Origin: Gammaproteobacteria bacterium
GTDB taxonomy: Bacteria > Pseudomonadota > Gammaproteobacteria > Arenicellales > UBA868
Length of the DNA: 64,000 nucleotides
Direction: 5' to 3'
Assembly: GCA_022450155.1 (NCBI GenBank)
Contig: JAKUQR010000007.1
Location: 58,796-122,795 of the forward strand
Both the position numbers and the translations under genes were made by a program. Below the pieces are notes generated by a model. It ran no database searches and was not told the origin of the DNA. It was given only the letters and a program-made list of their open reading frames with translations. Shown in pieces: positions 28,300-56,337 of this stretch. How positions within the stretch are numbered: the first letter of the stretch is position 1; every line of letters begins with the position of its first letter.

Positions 28300-30954
28300 T
28301 CAGGAAGGCAGCGCGGCGCAAACGGTTTCTGCAATTTTGTTTCTTTCTTCTGGGTTATTTATCGGTTGGCCGTCACGGTCCGTAATATAGAAAATATCTT
28401 CCGCTCTTTCACCGAAGGTACTGATTCTAGCGCTCACCAGATGTGTTTTACACGCAATGAATGCCTTCGCAACTTGATGGAGTAGCCCGGGTCGGTCTTG
28501 GGCAATGACCACCATAATGGTTTTGTCCTGATCTCTTGGCTTGGGAAATGTCACCTTTGTGCCTATAGGAAAATGCTGCAGGGTGCGAGAGAGTCGAGTC
28601 CGCTGGGGATCTTTGCTGGGTTTTGGATCTATTATCTGCGCCCTCAATGCCTGTTTTGTAGACTTTATGACTCTTTTGGTCAGTTTGTTACGGCCCACGT
28701 TCAACACAACAAATATCATCATAACCAGGCCAGAACGGGTACGGTGGACGCGAGCATCGACGATGTTCAGGTTTTCTCGATCAAAACCCGCAGTCACATT
28801 ACACAATAGATGCTCCGAGTCAGGCGCGCAGACAAACACCTCGGTGGTGCCAGATTCACTATTGTCTATCGTGTCTATAATTGGCAGGGACGCTATAGAG
28901 GAAGATGACAGAAGGCTCGTGTGCCAGGCAATGGCGGCTGGGGGATTCCGAAGAAAATACTCGTCTTCCAATATCGACCATACACTTTCGGCTGTCTCTC
29001 GCTTGATCGATGCGTCCTTCAGATAAGTCAGCGACTCGCTTTTCAGATCTTCTATTCTTTCTGATGGCAGTAGCGGGGACCCAACGTCACGATGAAGCGC
29101 CTGTGTCGTTGCGTTGTAGAGGTCACCCAGAAGCTTCGCCTTCCAGTCATTCCATACATGAGGGCTGGTGCCCCTTATATCAGCAACCGTAAGCAGATAA
29201 AGATTGTCCAGGTGTTCCTGATCTCCAACCAGGCGCGCAAAGTCATCTATTACGCCAACATCTGAGATATCTTCACGCTGTGCTGTCCACGACATGGTGA
29301 GATGGTGGCGGACCAGCCACGATACAAAATGACAGTCATAATCACTCATGTCGTGTATTCTGCAGAATCGATAAGTCTCAGATTCACCCAGCTTGGAGTG
29401 GTCTCCTCCTTGCCCTTTTGAAATATCGTGAAACAGTGCCGCTATAAAAAGACGATGCCGCTTGAAAATCGTACGCATTAGCCTGCTTTCTGCCGGGTAC
29501 TCGTTGTCGTGTTCGGGCATCTCAAGTCGTCGGAGATTTCTTACGACAAAGAGAAGATGTGCGTCGACTGTATAGACATGAAAAAGGTCATGTTGCATCT
29601 GGCCTTTGATTCGCCCAAATTGGGGTATATAGGCCCCTAGAATACCGTAAGCGTTCATTTGTCGGAGTGCGCGTGTCTGTCCGAGCGGTGCTTTCAGAAT
29701 CTCCATAAATAGACTTCTACACCGGAGGTCTTGGCGAAATTCAGAATCTATTCGAAAAAGATTCTCTCGAATTGATCTGATGGTGACTACGCTGATGCCT
29801 GTGAGATCCGGGTGCTGTTGCAAAAGCAAGAAAACTTCCAGAAGAGCGAAAGGGGATGTCTGAAATACAGTAGAGTTGCGTATTTCAATAAGACCGTTTC
29901 TTGTACGAAAGCGACGATTTAGGTCGGTAGCTCCATTTTTTCCATCCTTTGTTTTTGGTTTCGCGGCTGCTTGCAACTGCTGCAGTACAGTGGTATTGAG
30001 CAGTTGTACTTCACCAACTGTTCGGTAATACCGTTTCATGAGTTTTTCGACTGCCAACGTCGTTGTATCTTTATAACCGAATTGTTGGGCGATTTCGCGC
30101 TGGTAATCAAAAAGAAGCCGGTCTTCAGCTCGACCTGACGCGAAGTGCAATGCATTGCGAATTTTCCACAGGAAGTTCCGCCCTCTGATCAATTCCCGAT
30201 ATTCGTGCTCGGCTAGGTAATTGTGGGAAACAAGGTAACGGAGACCCTGCTGATTAAGAACCCGGTGAGCAACCCAGCCAATGGTCTGGAGGTCTCTTAA
30301 ACCACCGGGTCCTTCTTTGATCTGAGGCTCGAGGTTATAGGCAGTGTCATCGTAGCGCAGGTGGCGGGCTGACTGTTCGTCGATTTTGGCTTCTAGGTAT
30401 TTTGCAGCTGGCCACATCATGTCGACCCCGGTTCGCAACTTGAGTTGACTCAGCAGTTCGGCGTCGCCAGCAAGTGCCCTCGATTCCAATAAGTTGGTCA
30501 TTACAGTCACATCATTCCGTGCCTGAGAGGTACAGTCGCGAAGTGTGCGAACGCTGTGACCGATTGTGAGTCCGACATCCCAGAGTGTTCGAACCAGCGA
30601 TTCAGTATTTCGTTGTTGTGTTTTAGTGGGTGCCTTTTGAAAGAGTACCAGTAAATCGATGTCCGACCCCGGATGAAGTTCAGACCTGCCATAGCCACCA
30701 ACGGCAACGAGTGCGACCGACCGACCTTTTTCCGTCGAAGGTGCGTGATGTTCCCAGATGGCTTTGACGACCTGATCTACAAGCCAGGCATGAGCAGTGA
30801 CGATATCCTGTGAAGGGGCACCACCCAGATGGTAGCTCCTTAATACGTCGTTACTTTCGTTCAGCAGTGTTTTGAGCTGGCCGACTTCATCCGAATCCTC
30901 TACCAACCGGTGCAGAGCCCGGGTATCCAGGATACGGTTGCGTGATAACCGCAT
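28300..30954 (-). CDS. glnD: Bifunctional PII uridylyltransferase / uridylyl-removing enzyme
   Basis: The glutamine sensor that uridylylates PII when nitrogen is short and removes UMP when glutamine is plentiful. The order of domains is complete in 884 residues: nucleotidyltransferase (GGYGRSELHPGSDIDLL) near residue 80, a GlnD helical domain, the HD hydrolase domain (LFHDISKGQGGDHSKLGE), and two C-terminal ACT domains, the last opening with VVIAQDRPGLLHQV. The start lies three bases after the map stop, so translation may be coupled. Confidence 0.97.
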   Translation of the reverse strand: MRLSRNRILDTRALHRLVEDSDEVGQLKTLLNESNDVLRSYHLGGAPSQDIVTAHAWLVDQVVKAIWEHHAPSTEKGRSVALVAVGGYGRSELHPGSDIDLLVLFQKAPTKTQQRNTESLVRTLWDVGLTIGHSVRTLRDCTSQARNDVTVMTNLLESRALAGDAELLSQLKLRTGVDMMWPAAKYLEAKIDEQSARHLRYDDTAYNLEPQIKEGPGGLRDLQTIGWVAHRVLNQQGLRYLVSHNYLAEHEYRELIRGRNFLWKIRNALHFASGRAEDRLLFDYQREIAQQFGYKDTTTLAVEKLMKRYYRTVGEVQLLNTTVLQQLQAAAKPKTKDGKNGATDLNRRFRTRNGLIEIRNSTVFQTSPFALLEVFLLLQQHPDLTGISVVTIRSIRENLFRIDSEFRQDLRCRSLFMEILKAPLGQTRALRQMNAYGILGAYIPQFGRIKGQMQHDLFHVYTVDAHLLFVVRNLRRLEMPEHDNEYPAESRLMRTIFKRHRLFIAALFHDISKGQGGDHSKLGESETYRFCRIHDMSDYDCHFVSWLVRHHLTMSWTAQREDISDVGVIDDFARLVGDQEHLDNLYLLTVADIRGTSPHVWNDWKAKLLGDLYNATTQALHRDVGSPLLPSERIEDLKSESLTYLKDASIKRETAESVWSILEDEYFLRNPPAAIAWHTSLLSSSSIASLPIIDTIDNSESGTTEVFVCAPDSEHLLCNVTAGFDRENLNIVDARVHRTRSGLVMMIFVVLNVGRNKLTKRVIKSTKQALRAQIIDPKPSKDPQRTRLSRTLQHFPIGTKVTFPKPRDQDKTIMVVIAQDRPGLLHQVAKAFIACKTHLVSARISTFGERAEDIFYITDRDGQPINNPEERNKIAETVCAALPS

Positions 30955-30957
30955 AAT

Positions 30958-31725
30958 TCAGACAGGTTGAGACGGGTGGCCTGTTAGAATTTCATGACCG
31001 TCTTCGGTAACTGCTACCGTATGTTCCCATTGTGCGCTCAGGCTATGATCTCTGGTAACAACGGTCCAGCCGTCCGGGAGCAGGCGAGTTTCCTTCTTTC
31101 CCGCGTTGATCATTGGCTCAATGGTAAAGGTCATCCCAGGGGTGAGCTCCAAGCCGCTTCCAGACCTACCGTAGTGCAGTACCTGTGGGTCTTCATGAAA
31201 CACACGCCCAATGCCATGGCCACAGTATTCGCGCACAACGGAAAACCCGTTGCCCTCAGCATATTGCTGGATCGCAGCACCGATGTCTCCAAGGCGGGTG
31301 CCAGGGCGTACAAGACGGGTAGCTGTTTCAAGGCACTCACGAGTGACATTTATCAGGCGTTGAGCTCGAATTGAGATGTCGCCAATCGCAAACATTCTGC
31401 TGGCGTCCCCATGGTACCCATCTTTTATCACGGTGATGTCGATGTTAATGATATCGCCTGTTTTGAGCTTTCTCTTGCCTGGAATACCGTGGCAGACCAC
31501 GTGATTCACACTTGTACAGATCGATTTGGGGAATCCCCGATAGTTTAATGGCGCTGGTATCGCATCGAGCTCATCGGTGATGTATCGGTGACAAATCTGA
31601 TCCAACTCATCCGTGGTGACACCAGGCGTCACGTGAGGCGTTATCATATCGAGCACCTGTCTCGTTAGTAGGCCAGCTACCCGCATTTTGGTTAATTCAT
31701 CGGCAGTTTTTATCGTTACGGACAT
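30958..31725 (-). CDS. map: Methionine aminopeptidase, type I
   Basis: Removes the initiator Met from nascent proteins whose second residue is small. All five metal ligands are visible: the Asp pair in INIDITVIKDGYHGD, His in CGHGIGRVFHED, Glu in FTIEPMIN and Glu in WEHTVAVTEDG. 255 residues. It is divergent from rpsB, the usual gammaproteobacterial layout, with 271 bases between the two starts. Confidence 0.98.
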   Translation of the reverse strand: MSVTIKTADELTKMRVAGLLTRQVLDMITPHVTPGVTTDELDQICHRYITDELDAIPAPLNYRGFPKSICTSVNHVVCHGIPGKRKLKTGDIINIDITVIKDGYHGDASRMFAIGDISIRAQRLINVTRECLETATRLVRPGTRLGDIGAAIQQYAEGNGFSVVREYCGHGIGRVFHEDPQVLHYGRSGSGLELTPGMTFTIEPMINAGKKETRLLPDGWTVVTRDHSLSAQWEHTVAVTEDGHEILTGHPSQPV

Positions 31726-31852
31726 GGAACACGGAAAATTGGTTAATTTCGGGGCAACCTATCCTACACGAACATTTCGCCAGATGTGCCCTCAAGTGCT
31801 GTTTTCAGAACACTTAACCGGACAGTATGGGTAGTGCAGAAACGTCAGCCAC

Positions 31853-31881
31853 TGGCGATTTTCTCAATGTTCGGATACAAT
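31853..31881 (+). promoter_or_regulatory. Promoter for rpsB-tsf
   Basis: TACAAT (5/6 to the -10 consensus) with TGGCGA 17 bases upstream as a poor -35. Transcription would begin near 31888, giving a leader of about 109 bases to rpsB, in keeping with the long rpsB leaders of gammaproteobacteria. Confidence 0.4.
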
Positions 31882-31927
31882 CCCGCCCCCAAAATCCTGG
31901 CAGGTAACATAATCAATCGCCCGGGTG

Positions 31928-31951
31928 CCCATTTGCATACAAACAGATGGG
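31928..31951 (+). promoter_or_regulatory. rpsB leader: Hairpin in rpsB leader, candidate S2 feedback element
   Basis: CCCATTTG pairs with CAGATGGG over eight base pairs (one G-U) around an eight-base loop, 45 bases before the rpsB start. In E. coli S2 represses its own operon through a conserved structured leader. The position fits; the identity with that element is inferred. Confidence 0.4.
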
Positions 31952-31996
31952 TTGGCGATAGAGGTACCTGTCGAAACTGAACCCGAAGGAGATTAC

Positions 31997-32884
31997 ATGG
32001 CAGACATCAATATGCGTCAGATGCTGGAAGCTGGCGTTCATTTCGGTCATCAGACCCGTTACTGGTCACCAAAGATGGCACCCTATATTTTTGGTAGCCG
32101 TAACAAAATTCATATTATTAATCTGGAAGCCACGTTGCCCCTATTTCAGGAGGCGATGAACTTTCTAGGAAGCATTACCGCTGCAAAAGGAACGGTGTTG
32201 TTCGTTGGCACAAAGCGTCAGGCGAGCAAACTGGTTCGGGAGCAGGCTCAACGGTGCGGTTGCCCTTTTGTGGACCACCGCTGGCTTGGGGGTATGTTAA
32301 CGAACTTTAAGACAGTCAAGAATTCTATAGCCAGGTTGATTGAGCTTGATGAGTTAAATAGTAGTGGTGCTATAGCCCGGCTAAGCAAAAAGGAAGCGCT
32401 TAGTTTGGAGCGACAACGAAGTAAGCTGGATCGCAGTCTTTCCGGTATACGGGATATGAAGAGTCTTCCAGACTGTGTTTTTATCATAGATGTCGAACAT
32501 GAAAAAATCGCGGTTGCCGAGGCTAAGAAATTGAAGATCCCGCTGGTCGGTATAGTCGACACAAACAGCTCACCAGAGGGAATCGACTACCCGGTTCCTG
32601 GTAATGATGATGCAATAAGAGCGATACGCCTTTATCTTTCTCATGCCGCTGATGCTATTTTGGAGGCAAAAAGTATTCTCCCAGAAGTTATCGGTGGTGA
32701 CGCTGAAGACTATGTAGAGGTTTCTGAAGACATGGGGGTAGCTGGTATGGTTGGGGGCGGCCAGATTGAAGTGTCTGAGCCTCTTGTTGCCCCGGAAGAG
32801 GTTCCCGAGGCTACACCTGCCCCAACAGGAGAAGGTGCGCTGTCAACGGAAATCGAAAAAAGCACTGATGAACAAGCGCAGTGA
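31997..32884 (+). CDS. rpsB: Small ribosomal subunit protein uS2
   Basis: Binds the 30S head-body junction and is needed for S1 recruitment. The conserved core opens [22 protein letters not shown] and contains [20 protein letters not shown] and the [22 protein letters not shown] block. The 295-residue length exceeds E. coli's 241 owing to a C-terminal tail of about 60 mainly acidic and Pro/Ala-rich residues. AAGGAG sits six bases before the ATG at 31997; a frame extension to 31925 lacks that support. Confidence 0.98.
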
Positions 32885-32902
32885 CCGGGTGAGGACCATT
32901 AC

Positions 32903-33784
32903 ATGACTATATCAGCCGTCTTGGTCAAAGAACTGCGTGAGCGTACTGGTGCAGGCATGATGGACTGCAAAAAAGCTCTTATTCAGACAAATGGCGACAT
33001 AGAGCAGGGCATAAAGCTGCTGCGAAAGATAGGCGTTGCAAGTGCAGAAAAGAAGTCGGGACGAATCGCAGCTGAAGGAATAGTCGTCCAGCTTTCTTCG
33101 GAGGACAACTCTTTGGGCGTGTTGGTCGAGATAAATTGCGAAACCGACTTTGTGGCCAAAGACCGCTCGTTTAAAGAATATGCAACGGCAGTCGCGCAGT
33201 GTGTGCTTGCTGGTGAACAAAACACGATTGAAGAACTGGGGGAATCTGAACTTCATCCAGATATGTCCGTCGATCAGGTACGCCAGGAGCTGATCTCCAA
33301 AATCGGTGAAAATATTTCTGTTCGCCGTTTCGATAGACTGAGATCTCCCGATGGTCTGGTGGCTGGTTACCTCCATGGGGGAAGGATCGGTGTACTGGTC
33401 TCCATGGATGTGTGCGATGCGGAGCTCGGTAAAGGTATTGCGATGCATATTGCAGCCAGTCACCCAATTTGTATCGCCGAGGCTGACATTCCTGAGAAAG
33501 TCATCGAGGCGGAGCGGTCAATATTTGTTGCGCAGGCAAAAGAGAGCGGCAAATCTGATGACATCGTTGCACGTATGGTCGACGGCAAGTTAAAAAAGTT
33601 TATGAAGGAGAATACCCTGCTGGGGCAGGCTTATGTAAAGGATCCAGATACAACGATTGGCGATTTGGTCGCCGGTGCTGGCGTAGCGGTAGTCGAGATG
33701 CTTCGCTATGAAGTGGGTGAAGGACTTGAAAAACGTGATGATGACTTCGTCGCCGAAGTGATGGCACAAGCTAACCGTGGATAA
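32903..33784 (+). CDS. tsf: Elongation factor Ts
   Basis: The guanine-nucleotide exchange factor for EF-Tu. The N-terminal UBA-like region (VKELRERTGAGMMDCKKAL) and the TDFVAKD contact with EF-Tu are visible, with the dimer core filling the rest of the 293 residues. It follows rpsB by 18 bases. In most gammaproteobacteria pyrH comes next; here the next gene is frr, 451 bases away. Confidence 0.98.
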   Translation: MTISAVLVKELRERTGAGMMDCKKALIQTNGDIEQGIKLLRKIGVASAEKKSGRIAAEGIVVQLSSEDNSLGVLVEINCETDFVAKDRSFKEYATAVAQCVLAGEQNTIEELGESELHPDMSVDQVRQELISKIGENISVRRFDRLRSPDGLVAGYLHGGRIGVLVSMDVCDAELGKGIAMHIAASHPICIAEADIPEKVIEAERSIFVAQAKESGKSDDIVARMVDGKLKKFMKENTLLGQAYVKDPDTTIGDLVAGAGVAVVEMLRYEVGEGLEKRDDDFVAEVMAQANRG

Positions 33785-34235
33785 GATAATGTGGAAGAAG
33801 AAAACGTCCACCACAGATGTTGTCTGACGATTTTATCGGCAAAAGTCTGACTTGAAAACAAGCTGCCTGTAATACCCCGCATGTCCTCAACCGGACAGAT
33901 GCAAATCTCATAGCGGGTATCGGGCGTTTACGGGCATCACGGATTCAATACCGATTTAACTGTACGTCTCAAGGCTATTGAGCCACCCGAATCTCCCTGA
34001 ATAAACAGACCGGTCCCACCGTGGTCATGAGTGGGTCCGCCACGCCCGTAACAAAATTGGTCGTATTATCTTTGACATTGTTACCAAATCTAGTCGTAAT
34101 GCGCTGAATTGAATAAATATTTCTGGATGCTGAAACCCAGCCTGTTAATCCACTTGGACAGTATTAAAATATCGAGAAGCCCCGATAGATATATACAGAT
34201 TCCGAGGGGCAGTAGGTGATGAAGGGAGGAAAATG
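33785..34235. other. Gene-free stretch where pyrH is expected
   Basis: 451 bases with no supported gene in any frame. None of the UMP-kinase motifs (LKLSGEAL, GGGN, TGDHMG-like) can be read, so this is not an obvious pyrH remnant. It holds a good promoter (34072-34100) and, just before the frr ribosome-binding site, a five-base-pair GCCCC/GGGGC stem with a long loop. pyrH is presumably elsewhere. Confidence 0.7.
34072..34100 (+). promoter_or_regulatory. Promoter for frr and downstream genes
   Basis: A perfect TTGACA -35, a 17-base spacer and CGTAAT (4/6 to the -10 consensus). Transcription would start near 34107, giving a leader of about 130 bases. It would uncouple frr-uppS-cdsA from the rpsB-tsf promoter. 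Confidence 0.5.
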
Positions 34236-34793
34236 ATGATCGATGAAATCATGTTGGACGCAAAAACTCGCATGAAAAAGAGCATCGCTGCAGTCAAGGT
34301 TGAATTGGCAAAGATCCGTACCGGTCGGGCCACCCCAGCGCTGCTCGACCATGTTGTGGTTAATTATTACGGCAACGATGTGGCGCTTAATCAGGCTGCA
34401 ACAATCAGTGTGTCTGATGCCCGCACCCTGTCAGTGCAGGCTTGGGAAAAGAGCATGGTACCAACAATAGAGAAGGCTATTCTAGAATCACAGTTGGGCC
34501 TAAACCCTGTTACAGCTGGCGAGGTCATGCGCATTCCTATACCGCCGTTGACAGAAGAAAGGCGTCGGGAGATGAGTAAGCTGGTACGCAGTGAGGGAGA
34601 ACACGGGAAGGTCGCCATTCGAAATATAAGGCGAGATGCAATTAGTCATGCCCGTGATTTGGTTAAAAGCAAGGACATCAGCCAGGATGAAGAAAAAAAA
34701 GGAGTAGAGCAGATACAATCGCTTACGGATCAGTACAGCGCAGAAATTGATGCACTGATCAAAGAGAAAGAATCCGACATTATGGAAGTGTAG
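34236..34793 (+). CDS. frr: Ribosome recycling factor
   Basis: Splits post-termination ribosomes with EF-G. The 185 residues equal the E. coli length, with the three-helix-bundle sequences KIRTGRATPALLD, NPVTAGEVMRIPIPPLTEERR and VRSEGEHGKVAIRNIRRDA. GGGAGG lies six bases before the second of two adjacent ATG codons, so I use 34236; using 34233 would add one Met. Confidence 0.98.
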   Translation: MIDEIMLDAKTRMKKSIAAVKVELAKIRTGRATPALLDHVVVNYYGNDVALNQAATISVSDARTLSVQAWEKSMVPTIEKAILESQLGLNPVTAGEVMRIPIPPLTEERRREMSKLVRSEGEHGKVAIRNIRRDAISHARDLVKSKDISQDEEKKGVEQIQSLTDQYSAEIDALIKEKESDIMEV

Positions 34794-34856
34794 TCAAATA
34801 GAAAGCTGATCAGCTGTATTATCTTGTCAAACATCTAGTCATATATAGTCGAACCT

Positions 34857-35594
34857 ATGCCGGGTGAAGATCTGTGTGAAGTGCCATACCATGTTGCCAT
34901 CGTGATGGATGGGAACGGTCGTTGGGCGCAGCGAAGGAAGCAGTCCAGAATTTACGGCCACAAGAAAGGGGTAGAGGCACTACGCCGCATCATAGAATGC
35001 TGTGGATTTCATGGTGTTTCAATATTGACTATATTCGCTTTCAGCAGTGAAAACTGGCGTCGGCCACCAGCAGAAGTCACCGGACTGAAACGCCTCTTGT
35101 TTTCCAGCCTTGCTGCTGAAGCTGATAGTCTGGTCAGCAATGGTGTCCGGCTTCGTGTTATCGGTGATTTAGGACCGTTTGGAACTGATGTCCTGCACTT
35201 GGTTCAGGACACGGAACGTAGAACAGCCAGTAACCACAAGCTGGAACTGGTCATTGCAGTGAATTATGGGGGTCGCTGGGACATCGTCTCTGCCTGTCGA
35301 AGGCTGGCTATGAAAGCGGTTGAAGGAAAACTTTCTTGCGATGCTATTGACGAACAGTGTGTTTCTGAGGCGCTCAGTACATCGACACTACCCGACCCGG
35401 ATTTGTGCATTCGGACTGGCGGTGAATACCGAATTAGCAATTTTCTACTCTGGCAACTCGCCTATACCGAATTGTATTTTACTGAAACACTCTGGCCTGA
35501 ATTCACCGAAGATGATTTTGTTGAGGCCCTGAATTGGTACGCCACGCGGCAAAGACGGTTTGGCAAGATCCAGGAACAGGTCAGGGTCTCCTGA
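34857..35594 (+). CDS. uppS: Undecaprenyl diphosphate synthase
   Basis: Adds eight isoprene units in cis to farnesyl diphosphate, making the lipid carrier for peptidoglycan and O-antigen. The signature MDGNGRWAQRR with the catalytic Asp is near residue 19, followed by FAFSSENWRRP and the RTGGEYRISNFLLWQ...YTELYF region. 245 residues. Same order (frr-uppS-cdsA-dxr) as other proteobacteria. Confidence 0.97.
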   Translation: MPGEDLCEVPYHVAIVMDGNGRWAQRRKQSRIYGHKKGVEALRRIIECCGFHGVSILTIFAFSSENWRRPPAEVTGLKRLLFSSLAAEADSLVSNGVRLRVIGDLGPFGTDVLHLVQDTERRTASNHKLELVIAVNYGGRWDIVSACRRLAMKAVEGKLSCDAIDEQCVSEALSTSTLPDPDLCIRTGGEYRISNFLLWQLAYTELYFTETLWPEFTEDDFVEALNWYATRQRRFGKIQEQVRVS

Positions 35595-35698
35595 CTGATC
35601 AGAGTTTAATTGGAGTCACAACAAGAGACGATCTGGTTCTAAAGGTAGGTTGTTCTGAGTTACCTGACAGCACAGTGCGGCCCTGCTGAGCTTATGGA

Positions 35699-36535
35699 AT
35701 GAAAAAACGGTTAGCAACAGCAACAGTGCTGGCGGCACTCGTAGTCACAGTTATCCTTTGGTTACCAGGCGCCGTATTTACCGGATTTCTAGTCGTCACC
35801 AGTGGATTGGCTGCTTGGGAGTGGTCCCGGTTGATTCCAGGTGGGTTGTCCTCGGCAGTACGGGGCGTATATTCTGCCGTGGTCCCTATGGTTTTGCTTG
35901 GAAGTGCATTGTATGAGCCGAGTTGGGTGCCCCTGACGATAGGCGCATCAATGGTTTGGCTCGTGCTTAGCGGGGTTATTTTGTTTCAGATATACCACCG
36001 ATCTCAGGTGCAGATACGTTCCGGGCTTCTTCTTGGTTTGATCCTGCTCGTACCGGGCCCCGTTGCTTTGATTGCCATTCAGCAGAATCTGGAACAAGGG
36101 CGTTTGCTGGTTTTGATGATCTGCGTCGTTGTCTGGGCGGCTGATACTTTTGCTTATGCAGTCGGTAAACGATTTGGGCGACATAAATGGACGCCAAGTA
36201 TCAGTCCCGGAAAAACACTGGAGGGCACACTGGGTGGTATAGTGGGTGCTATTGGAACGGGGATCATCTTCTTTTTTGTCCTGATGGAAAACTATAAGGT
36301 CGGCATCATTGGATTTGGCCCGTGGTGCTTAATCGCTGCATCAGTTGCCGTAATGGCAATCATTGGTGATTTGGTGGAGAGTGCTGTAAAACGCTCAGCG
36401 CATCAGAAAGACAGTGGCACCCTTTTGCCGGGGCATGGTGGGGTGCTTGACCGGATCGATAGCCTGTTGTGTGCGGCACCAATATTCGGCAGTTGGATGT
36501 TTTTGTGGGAAAAGGGCGCAACAGTCGCGTTGTAG
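35699..36535 (+). CDS. cdsA: Phosphatidate cytidylyltransferase
   Basis: Makes CDP-diacylglycerol from phosphatidic acid and CTP, the precursor used by PssA. A membrane protein with about eight predicted spans and the C-terminal signature SPGKTLEGTLGG, then GDLVESAVKRSAHQKDSG and LPGHGGVLDRIDSL. 278 residues. dxr begins five bases later. Confidence 0.96.
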   Translation: MKKRLATATVLAALVVTVILWLPGAVFTGFLVVTSGLAAWEWSRLIPGGLSSAVRGVYSAVVPMVLLGSALYEPSWVPLTIGASMVWLVLSGVILFQIYHRSQVQIRSGLLLGLILLVPGPVALIAIQQNLEQGRLLVLMICVVVWAADTFAYAVGKRFGRHKWTPSISPGKTLEGTLGGIVGAIGTGIIFFFVLMENYKVGIIGFGPWCLIAASVAVMAIIGDLVESAVKRSAHQKDSGTLLPGHGGVLDRIDSLLCAAPIFGSWMFLWEKGATVAL

Positions 36536-36539
36536 TGAG

Positions 36540-37781
36540 ATGATCAAAAACATCGCAATTCTGGGTGCAACAGGTTCTATCGGTACCAGCGCACTAGATG
36601 TTATCGCAAAACATCCTGATCGTTTTGCTATCTGGGGCTTAACGAGTCATTCTCGTATAGACAATTGCTGTGCAATGATCGAAAAATTCCAGCCGAAGAT
36701 GGTGGCGGTTTCTGCTGCGATGACGGGTGATGTGGCTAACTTTTTGGCCAGTGGTTTTGGTTCGGTAACGCTGCTGGAAGGTGAACAAGGAATCAACACG
36801 ATAGCAGCTGCCGAGGAGGTTGATATTGTTATTGCTGGGATAGCAGGCGCTGCGGGATTTGCTTCGACACTGTCTGCGATCAGAGCGGGAAAGAAGGTCC
36901 TAATTGCAAACAAAGAACCTCTGGTCATGCTTGGCGAGATGCTGCGAAAGCTGGTTGCGGACTCGGGTGCTCAGATAATACCGATCGACAGCGAGCACAA
37001 TGCGATATTTCAGTGTCTCCCCAAAGCTGCACAGATCGATTGTATGAGCGGTGAAATAGACGCTGATCATGGATTACTGCGACATGGCGTACAAGGAATT
37101 ACCCTGACGGCATCGGGGGGGCCGTTTCTGAACACACCACCAGAAAGAATGTCAGACATTACGCCTGATCAAGCCGCTGCCCATCCTAGATGGACTATGG
37201 GGCGCAAGATATCAATTGATTCTGCGACAATGATGAACAAGGGCCTGGAAATGATCGAGGCCTGCGCTCTTTTTGGTGTTAGCCCACAGAATGTTGAAGT
37301 GGTCATTCACCCAGAAAGTATTGTCCACTCTTTTGTGGAGTACCTAGACGGGTCGATACTCGCTCAATTAGCAAGCCCTGATATGCGTGTGCCAATCGCT
37401 GCAGCTCTGGGCGATTGTGAACGTATTGATTCGGGTGCCGAACGATTAGATCTTGTCCGGGTGGGGCAGCTTAATTTTCAAAAGCCCGATGACCGGAAAT
37501 TTCCTTGTCTTGTACTCGCTCGACAGGTTGCAGAGACTGGTGGCGCGGCTCCTGTGGTACTGAATGCCGCCAACGAAGTTGCAGTCAATGCATTCTGTGC
37601 GGGTAGGCTACGATTTACCGATATCCCTGATCTAATCCACTGCGCGCTTGAAGACTTTAGCAATCTGGCAGTTGATGATGTGGAATCCATAATCCGGCTA
37701 GATCAGCAGGTTCGCGATATCCTGCAAAATAGGTTAGACACAAGCGCCAATTCATCACAGCAGACGGCGGCAGAATGCTAA
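36540..37781 (+). CDS. dxr: 1-deoxy-D-xylulose 5-phosphate reductoisomerase
   Basis: Second step of the MEP isoprenoid pathway, using NADPH. GATGSIG near residue 9 binds the cofactor; the metal site includes the DSEHNA motif; the flexible loop LTASGGPF and SATMMNKGLE follow. 413 residues from the ATG at 36540, which gives the exact family N-terminus (MIKNIAILGATGSIG); a frame extension to 36414 lies within cdsA and is rejected. The 3' end overlaps rseP. ispD is not found near ftsB in this window. Confidence 0.97.
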   Translation: MIKNIAILGATGSIGTSALDVIAKHPDRFAIWGLTSHSRIDNCCAMIEKFQPKMVAVSAAMTGDVANFLASGFGSVTLLEGEQGINTIAAAEEVDIVIAGIAGAAGFASTLSAIRAGKKVLIANKEPLVMLGEMLRKLVADSGAQIIPIDSEHNAIFQCLPKAAQIDCMSGEIDADHGLLRHGVQGITLTASGGPFLNTPPERMSDITPDQAAAHPRWTMGRKISIDSATMMNKGLEMIEACALFGVSPQNVEVVIHPESIVHSFVEYLDGSILAQLASPDMRVPIAAALGDCERIDSGAERLDLVRVGQLNFQKPDDRKFPCLVLARQVAETGGAAPVVLNAANEVAVNAFCAGRLRFTDIPDLIHCALEDFSNLAVDDVESIIRLDQQVRDILQNRLDTSANSSQQTAAEC

Positions 37782-51037: not shown

Positions 51038-53574
<2,537 letters not shown>

Positions 53575-55278: not shown

Positions 55279-56337
55279 CTATCTAGGTTCTTGAAGCCTA
55301 TAGGGCAGGGGCAGAGTTGTGAACTGTTCGTTACCTTGAACTCTATAGCAGTAAACGTTTTTGGCTTCCAAGAAACCGGAAACACTTAACAGGCACTCCG
55401 TGTTGATTCCGTCCAGGGCGCTGGCGTTTACGATGGTACCAGCCTTTTCGTTCAGTGCATCAGCCAAATAAACAGGCTGACCCACGCTGACTTCACCCGC
55501 GCTATTGATCTTTCCCCGTAGTACACGTTGCTTGACTCGACCGAGGTATCGCAGTCGTGCAACAATTTCCTGACCTGGATAACAACCCTTGGTGAAACTT
55601 ACACCAGATACCAAATCAAGGTTGATGTTTTGTGGTGTAAAGAGACCACTGGTCAATGCAGTTACAGTGGCAATGCCGTGGCGGATCTGGAGCAGGTTCC
55701 AATAATCCGAACCTAGAAGCGTAATATTTTCGCCAGTTTCTTCAATAAATTCGATAGCATCAGTCACTGGAACAACAATAAGTTGAGCTGGTGGGCCAGG
55801 CTCTGAATCACCATGGCATTCTTTGGGCCACGCAGATCCAATTTGGCACGAGGTAGATGTTGAAAACCGATCAAGTTCTACATCTCCGCTGAGGCACATA
55901 ACTGCTAAGTCAGAACAGACTCGGAAGGTCACATCCGCGCGGAGGACGAACATCTTCAGTCGATCAAGCAAAGGAGTGACATTTGAATGATGAGTCACCA
56001 TGTAGATAGCGCCATTCATCGGAAAGAGGCGAAACGTTGCGAGAACCCGTCCTTTGGGGTTGCAATAAGCTCCAAAAAGAAATCGTGTGTCTCCTAAATC
56101 TTTGATATCACAAGTTACTTGGCTTTGCAAAAAAGATTCAGCATCCTTTCCTTCGCAGCACATAACAGATTCCTGTGTACACGGGACGGCGAACTGACCA
56201 GGCACCTGTTGTTGAGATTGGGGGAATACCGTTCGCTGTCCCTCTGCAATTGCCCCGCCCTTTGACTCGAGTAACGCCAGCCAGGAGGGGTCAATTGACG
56301 ATTTATGGGTCTTGCTTGTCACAGGGAGATGACTCAT
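55279..56337 (-). CDS. ygfZ: Folate-binding iron-sulfur assembly protein YgfZ
   Basis: A tetrahydrofolate-dependent protein of the GcvT-like family that supports maturation or repair of certain [4Fe-4S] enzymes. The diagnostic motif KGCYPGQEIVARLRYLGRVKQR is visible around residue 245, with the conserved Cys. 352 residues. It is divergent from the SDH cluster, one of the main iron-sulfur enzymes here, and from sdhE, which in E. coli lies next to ygfZ; this supports a functional link. Confidence 0.93.
   Translation of the reverse strand: MSHLPVTSKTHKSSIDPSWLALLESKGGAIAEGQRTVFPQSQQQVPGQFAVPCTQESVMCCEGKDAESFLQSQVTCDIKDLGDTRFLFGAYCNPKGRVLATFRLFPMNGAIYMVTHHSNVTPLLDRLKMFVLRADVTFRVCSDLAVMCLSGDVELDRFSTSTSCQIGSAWPKECHGDSEPGPPAQLIVVPVTDAIEFIEETGENITLLGSDYWNLLQIRHGIATVTALTSGLFTPQNINLDLVSGVSFTKGCYPGQEIVARLRYLGRVKQRVLRGKINSAGEVSVGQPVYLADALNEKAGTIVNASALDGINTECLLSVSGFLEAKNVYCYRVQGNEQFTTLPLPYRLQEPR

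Follow-up and report, generated by a model that had tools for sequence, protein, structure and literature searches.

In the genome analysed here, the usual place between tsf and frr lacks pyrH, which encodes UMP kinase, and tsf and frr are likewise adjacent in the three other sampled genomes of its genus and in the sampled genome of the sister genus (5/5 genomes). UMP kinase is normally essential. The data fit a loss of pyrH rather than a move to another location. Independent losses of the gene appear to have affected a second clade within the order as well as one or more further gammaproteobacteria. The bacteria of the pyrH-less group are uncultured and apparently marine. We refer to the source genome as G000, to its genus as g1 (G000-G003) and to the sister genus as g5 (G007). 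The relatives compared were G001 (MED-G25), G002 (NP122), G003 (REDSEA-S15_B12) and G007 (SP340), and completeness was estimated at 95.5% for G000, 86% for G001, 81% for G002, 89% for G003 and 85% for G007, all of which are drafts. More generally, the pyrH-less genomes are multi-contig drafts and the named ones are MAGs.

The tsf-frr junction

The window, i.e., the whole stretch of 64,000 nucleotides that was analysed, is part of contig C7 of the 3.2-Mb G000 draft (77 contigs). Its genes around the junction (Table 1) are a methionine aminopeptidase gene on the minus strand, rpsB, tsf, the gap, frr, uppS, a cdsA-like gene whose score falls under its model's cut-off, two genes that are presumably dxr and rseP, and bamA. 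Elsewhere in the window, the minus strand carries a 352-aa ORF at 55279-56337 with no Pfam match at E 1e-5.

Table 1. Coordinates of the features discussed (window positions, except for Cmk)
Feature	Coordinates	Strand	Evidence or remark
rpsB, ribosomal protein S2	32024..32884	+	TIGR01011, 317 bits, over cut-off
tsf, elongation factor Ts	32903..33784	+	TIGR00116, 322 bits, over cut-off
pyrH-less tsf-frr interval, non-coding	33785..34232	+	homologous in four congeneric genomes
TTGACA-17-CGTAAT promoter-like site	34072..34100	+	TTGACA in 1/4 compared species (source species only)
genus-conserved block	34092..34110	+	17/19 positions invariant, four genomes
strongly conserved gap block, candidate frr promoter	34152..34172	+	20/21 positions invariant, four genomes; putative promoter role
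frr, ribosome recycling factor	34233..34793	+	TIGR00496, 213 bits, over cut-off
uppS, polyprenyl diphosphate synthase, next gene after frr	34857..35594	+	TIGR00055, 270 bits, over cut-off
pyrG, CTP synthase (UTP to CTP)	51077..52756	+	TIGR00337, 814 bits
Cmk, single-copy CMP kinase	G000:C5:30646-31275, locus L115		between aroA-like and rpsA-like genes

The stop of tsf and the start of frr are separated by 448 bases, and any ORF contained entirely in this interval is shorter than 60 aa. An earlier note on this DNA had claimed that pyrH is absent from the tsf-pyrH-frr slot, and this claim is borne out. The profile search that it proposed for a pyrH fragment in the gap found nothing and leaves this claim standing: a PyrH protein profile built from 20 relatives detected no remnant in the six frames of the tsf-frr gaps of the five genomes (best E 0.99), and a DNA profile of pyrH run on the gaps matched only the nine controls. 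The protein profile recovered all nine 150-base pyrH pieces used as positive controls at E 2.3e-12 or better; these were easy controls, since the three genomes that supplied them also contributed to the profiles. The comparison of the gap in relatives, also proposed in the note, revealed the same pyrH-less junction in three congeners and in the sister genus, and the gaps of the four congeneric genomes align with a mean column identity of 80%. An assembly deletion or chimera at the source junction alone, which the note had named as the finding that would speak against it, is refuted, and we give it practically no chance: the same junction recurs in four further assemblies recorded under separate names (L135-L138), and the four congeners share a homologous gap sequence. 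A conserved RNA in the gap was considered and rejected, with no Rfam match reaching the gathering score in 33500-34500 and no supported fold in the gap (covariation term of +1). A tRNA in 30000-37000 was rejected as well.

Distribution of pyrH across genomes

The earlier note argued that pyrH must be elsewhere in the genome, following excision or transfer. The full-genome search that it called for was run on the 95.5% complete G000 draft and yielded no PyrH over the TIGR02075 cut-off: the best score was 38.7 bits, for an aspartate kinase, against a cut-off of 243.9. Nor did we see a copy that had been excised or transferred. At E <= 1e-3, PyrH was found in none of G000-G003, G007, G048, G053 and G058, and the matches to TIGR02075 in G000-G003 and G007 were weak, lying in long frames that we read as aspartate kinase, with zero matches in G002. 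The same search detected PyrH in 14/14 control genomes, four archaea among them.

The gene order itself points in the same direction. Among 80 named frr loci, pyrH lies between tsf and frr in 71, three have pyrH on a locus that does not include tsf, and one has neither gene (its frr is 73 bases from the locus end); tsf without pyrH is confined to five loci, namely L135-L138 from the genus and sister genus, and L162. Outside these two genera, 24 of the 28 genomes of the same family (f1) possess PyrH, with pyrH directly before frr in 23 of them and on another contig in one, and the other four genomes are incomplete, frr not being found in them either. It could be argued that pyrH persists on a replicon, an island or a repeat that assembly and binning lost every time, as the two genera are represented by drafts only (five genomes, 81-95.5% complete). 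We consider this quite improbable: a random miss in all five has a probability of about 2e-5 (the product of the incompleteness values), the slot itself was assembled without pyrH in 5/5 genomes, and the genomes lacking pyrH group by clade in two families.

The second of these clades emerged from a scan of 109 genomes of the order using a threshold of E <= 1e-20. PyrH was present in 79 genomes, and the 30 without it comprise the five of the genus and sister genus (g1, 4/4; g5, 1/1), 14 genomes of family f8 and 11 scattered ones. Within f8, PyrH is absent from 14/14 genomes of genera g20, g22, g27, g28 and g29 (G048, G053, G058 and G091-G101) and present in 10/10 genomes of genera g13, g30 and g31. 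For ten of these 14 genomes the status was derived by subtraction from the genome list; the looser threshold of E <= 1e-3 covered three of the 14 (G048, G053 and G058), such that a divergent enzyme is possible in the other 11, and completeness is as low as 72% and 75% in two of the genomes. Where f8 junctions were read (three genomes), tsf and frr are adjacent and ~125-200 bases apart. The remaining 11 genomes (G013, G016, G026, G027, G045, G057, G066, G067, G075, G079 and G080) are scattered and for the most part incomplete, for which reason we did not count them as losses. The absence may nevertheless be real in one of them, G075 (family f10, genus g23, 93% complete), which presents neither a PyrH nor a Cytidylate_kin match at the thresholds applied, unlike most of the family members listed. 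A separate observation concerns G040, where the PyrH match (G040:C14:24240-24925) is split in two, with a TAG in frame in the first piece, which corresponds to a frameshift, a sequencing error or a broken gene.

Beyond the order, a sample of the class centred on genome G109 (90% completeness requested, values not displayed) presented PyrH in 268/276 genomes at E <= 1e-15. The eight without it were G109, four genomes of 1.0-2.0 Mb and three very small genomes of 0.3-0.4 Mb; unlike the latter, the G000 draft is 3.2 Mb long and has its own CTP synthase. Genome G109 (APA_bin_104, locus L162), which does not belong to the set of 109 scanned for the order, is a gammaproteobacterium in which tsf and frr are adjacent and no PyrH is found at E <= 1e-15. 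We found no published report of a natural pyrH absence among the matches listed in the open PMC literature, as judged from titles and the beginnings of abstracts.

Candidate replacements for UMP kinase

CTP is made from UTP, and UMP phosphorylation is hence required. Since the window contains pyrG, UMP must still be phosphorylated to reach UTP in these bacteria. Five G000 proteins match PF00696, each over its curated cut-off, and all of them are other enzymes: aspartate kinase (TIGR00656), ProB (TIGR01027), ArgB (TIGR00761), LysW-aminoadipate kinase (NF010659) and carbamate kinase (NF009007). No amino-acid-kinase gene of G000 is therefore left for an archaeal-type UMP kinase, and a relocated UMP kinase of the bacterial or archaeal type was rejected for the assembled genome. 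The [LysW]-aminoadipate kinase gene (L004, G000:C9) lies beside genes that we read as ArgC-like and aminotransferase-like, and an ordinary argB is found on C2.

The families ADK, Cytidylate_kin, Thymidylate_kin and AAA_17 were searched across genomes, and the amino-acid kinases in G000 alone. Each g1 genome presents one ADK and one TMPK match, which led us to reject a second enzyme of the adenylate kinase or thymidylate kinase type in the genus, and G000 has one full Cmk. With 227.9 bits for TIGR01351 (cut-off 168), the one protein of the ADK family in G000 is identified as an adenylate kinase; it scores 115.2 bits with the UMP/CMP kinase model TIGR01359, under the cut-off of 207.6, and there is no second protein of the family. 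This adenylate kinase (L132:523-1479) is 318 aa long, its domain reaching to about residue 215 and being followed by a long, lysine-rich, histone-like C-terminal tail, and adenylate kinase open frames of more than 300 codons are found in many family members too. Within the families searched, no extra nucleotide kinase was found in the genus that is absent from pyrH-bearing relatives. A 389-aa protein resembling 2-phosphoglycerate kinase (L130:512-1681, G000:C4; 267 bits, under the model's cut-off of 343) was rejected as a replacement, as several pyrH-bearing family members have likely counterparts, which are weak matches judged by hit and frame size only.

Sequence changes in Cmk

The Cmk of G000 scores 221 bits with TIGR00017 (cut-off 135.6) and its pocket residues are conserved. 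It is a member of this (d)CMP kinase family and adjoins an rpsA-like gene, but differs from the family by a Gly in place of Ser14 of the P-loop in all four genomes of the genus and in the one of the sister genus. The corresponding motif, DGPGGSGKGT, was found in 10 of the 109 genomes of the order, all ten without PyrH, and in 0/79 of the genomes with PyrH. Of the 30 genomes that gave no PyrH match, 20 lack the motif, nine of these belonging to the f8 clade, and in some of the 20 no Cmk was found at all. G043 possesses PyrH and yet has a Gly at position 14 of Cmk.

We aligned 62 Cmk sequences, of which 18 come from genomes lacking pyrH, 40 from PyrH-bearing genomes and four from genomes whose pyrH status is unknown (G013, G026, G057 and G079), these four being left out of the counts. 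Asp35 and Asp129 are invariant in 40/40 Cmks of genomes with PyrH and changed in 5/18 and 2/18, respectively, of those without it. Asp35 is replaced by Glu in the four g27 genomes (4/4) and by Gly in G109, whose Cmk reads LGSGTLYR instead of the usual LDSGALYR and AEGRDMG instead of ADGRDMG. Because the Cmk P-loop of G097 and G101 is ordinary and their pocket residues are the usual ones despite the lack of a PyrH match, no Cmk change is common to all pyrH-less genomes. Two candidate markers lost support. GPGGSGKGT, which had looked like a mark of every pyrH loss in 8/8 pyrH-less genomes, was weakened by G097, G098, G101, G091-G094 and G109, and T20A, observed in the Cmk of G098, was dropped as it is also present in one of the four Cmks of unknown status.

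The Cmk tree keeps the f1 and f8 groups apart and unites the genus with its sister genus in a single clade (SH-aLRT about 96). A tree-aware pair test offered two well-supported independent pairs (four on all branches), too few for significance, and a single pyrH loss within f8 was not rejected (p-AU 0.355). The Cmk of g1 presents no clear acceleration. At columns that are invariant elsewhere, the pyrH-less groups have two and three Cmk changes versus 0-2 in eight control groups, and two and one Frr changes versus 0-3, which suggests a slight excess of changes in Cmk.

The residues that read cytosine (Ser36, Arg110 and Asp132), as well as Arg181, Asp185 and Arg188, are unchanged in 18/18 Cmks of pyrH-less genomes. 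This is compatible with another explanation, namely that pyrH was lost and that a different kinase, e.g., a guanylate-kinase-like, polyphosphate-driven or unannotated P-loop enzyme, took its place. The ordinary Cmks of some pyrH-less f8 genomes would agree with it, and guanylate kinase, PPK2 and other kinases lie outside the families searched. The kinases surveyed above, the 2-phosphoglycerate-kinase-like protein included, argue against it, and we regard such a replacement as unlikely, if a serious contender.

Expression of frr

The earlier note described a strong promoter in the place of pyrH. A TTGACA with a 17-base spacer and CGTAAT is indeed present, but its strength is not supported by our comparisons: the -35 TTGACA is absent from the three other congeners, where the downstream TAAT is kept, and comparable sites arise in shuffled sequences. 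A TTGACA followed by 15-19 bases and a hexamer with at least four of six matches to TATAAT was obtained in 121/5000 shuffles of the gap, and the promoter pattern sought window-wide had at least one match in 44/100 shuffles. A site of this type is not rare by chance, and a promoter scan under its own rules did not list it. The block at 34152-34172, which contains a -10-like TAAAAT at 34165-34170, is probably, judging from its conservation, the more promising site for an frr promoter common to the congeners.

According to an excerpt of PMC6131387, frr of E. coli is transcribed alone, among other units, although pyrH is present. A promoter of its own is thus ordinary for frr and not a mark of pyrH loss, and the independent promoter that the note had proposed as following or enabling the loss need not have enabled it.

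Probable loss of pyrH and a possible takeover by Cmk

We propose that pyrH was deleted from tsf-pyrH-frr in the common ancestor of the genus and its sister genus and, as far as the draft assemblies reach, was not re-inserted elsewhere. The conversion of UMP to UDP would now be performed by the single-copy Cmk, a P-loop kinase unrelated to PyrH whose homologues act on UMP as a side activity. Expression of frr would depend on a promoter of its own within what is left of the interval, on read-through from rpsB-tsf, or on both. We judge this explanation, taken as a whole, to stand at about an even chance of being correct. That a UMP-active Cmk suffices for growth in the genus is the most likely hypothesis, by analogy with the systems described below, rather than a result.

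The closest likeness is with a laboratory swap in E. coli, in which an unrelated CMP kinase stands in for the absent PyrH, as we propose here. In the portions of PMC3386227 consulted, an extra cmk allows the deletion of the whole pyrH locus, and this strain grew even when cmk was uninduced, which the authors attribute to leaky expression or carry-over; the history of suppressors is covered in PMC3603445, likewise consulted in part. The extra cmk of that swap was plasmid-borne (PMC3386227, same portions), whereas the absence described here is natural and genus-wide and cmk is single copy. An excerpt of PMC3603445 reports a low UMP kinase activity of Cmk and describes a model of the Yersinia enzyme in which Ser14 forms a hydrogen bond with CDP, the bonds to cytosine come from Ser36, Arg110 and Asp132, and Tyr40 contributes stacking. 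The Cmk of Thermotoga accepts UMP, as stated in the available part of PMC10248530. The takeover would also resemble the eukaryotic UMP/CMP kinase (TIGR01359, adenylate kinase superfamily) in that one enzyme would act on both UMP and CMP; unlike that system, G000 has an adenylate kinase as its sole member of the ADK family.

On a broader scale, we suggest tentatively, at somewhat short of an even chance, that bacteria with genomes of ordinary size have deleted the nearly universal pyrH independently at least three times, leaving Cmk to make both CDP and UDP. The enzyme would have been retuned in different ways in some lineages, by Ser14-to-Gly, by Asp35-to-Glu, or by Asp35-to-Gly together with Ala38-to-Thr and Asp129-to-Glu, and the whole would constitute a natural counterpart of the cmk-for-pyrH swap of E. 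coli. PyrH is presented in an excerpt of PMC12847342 as an antibacterial target without eukaryotic homologues. If pyrH has truly been lost repeatedly in nature, the UMP kinase step would be replaceable outside the laboratory, pyrH would not be safe as a universal marker, and the predicted replacement would become testable.
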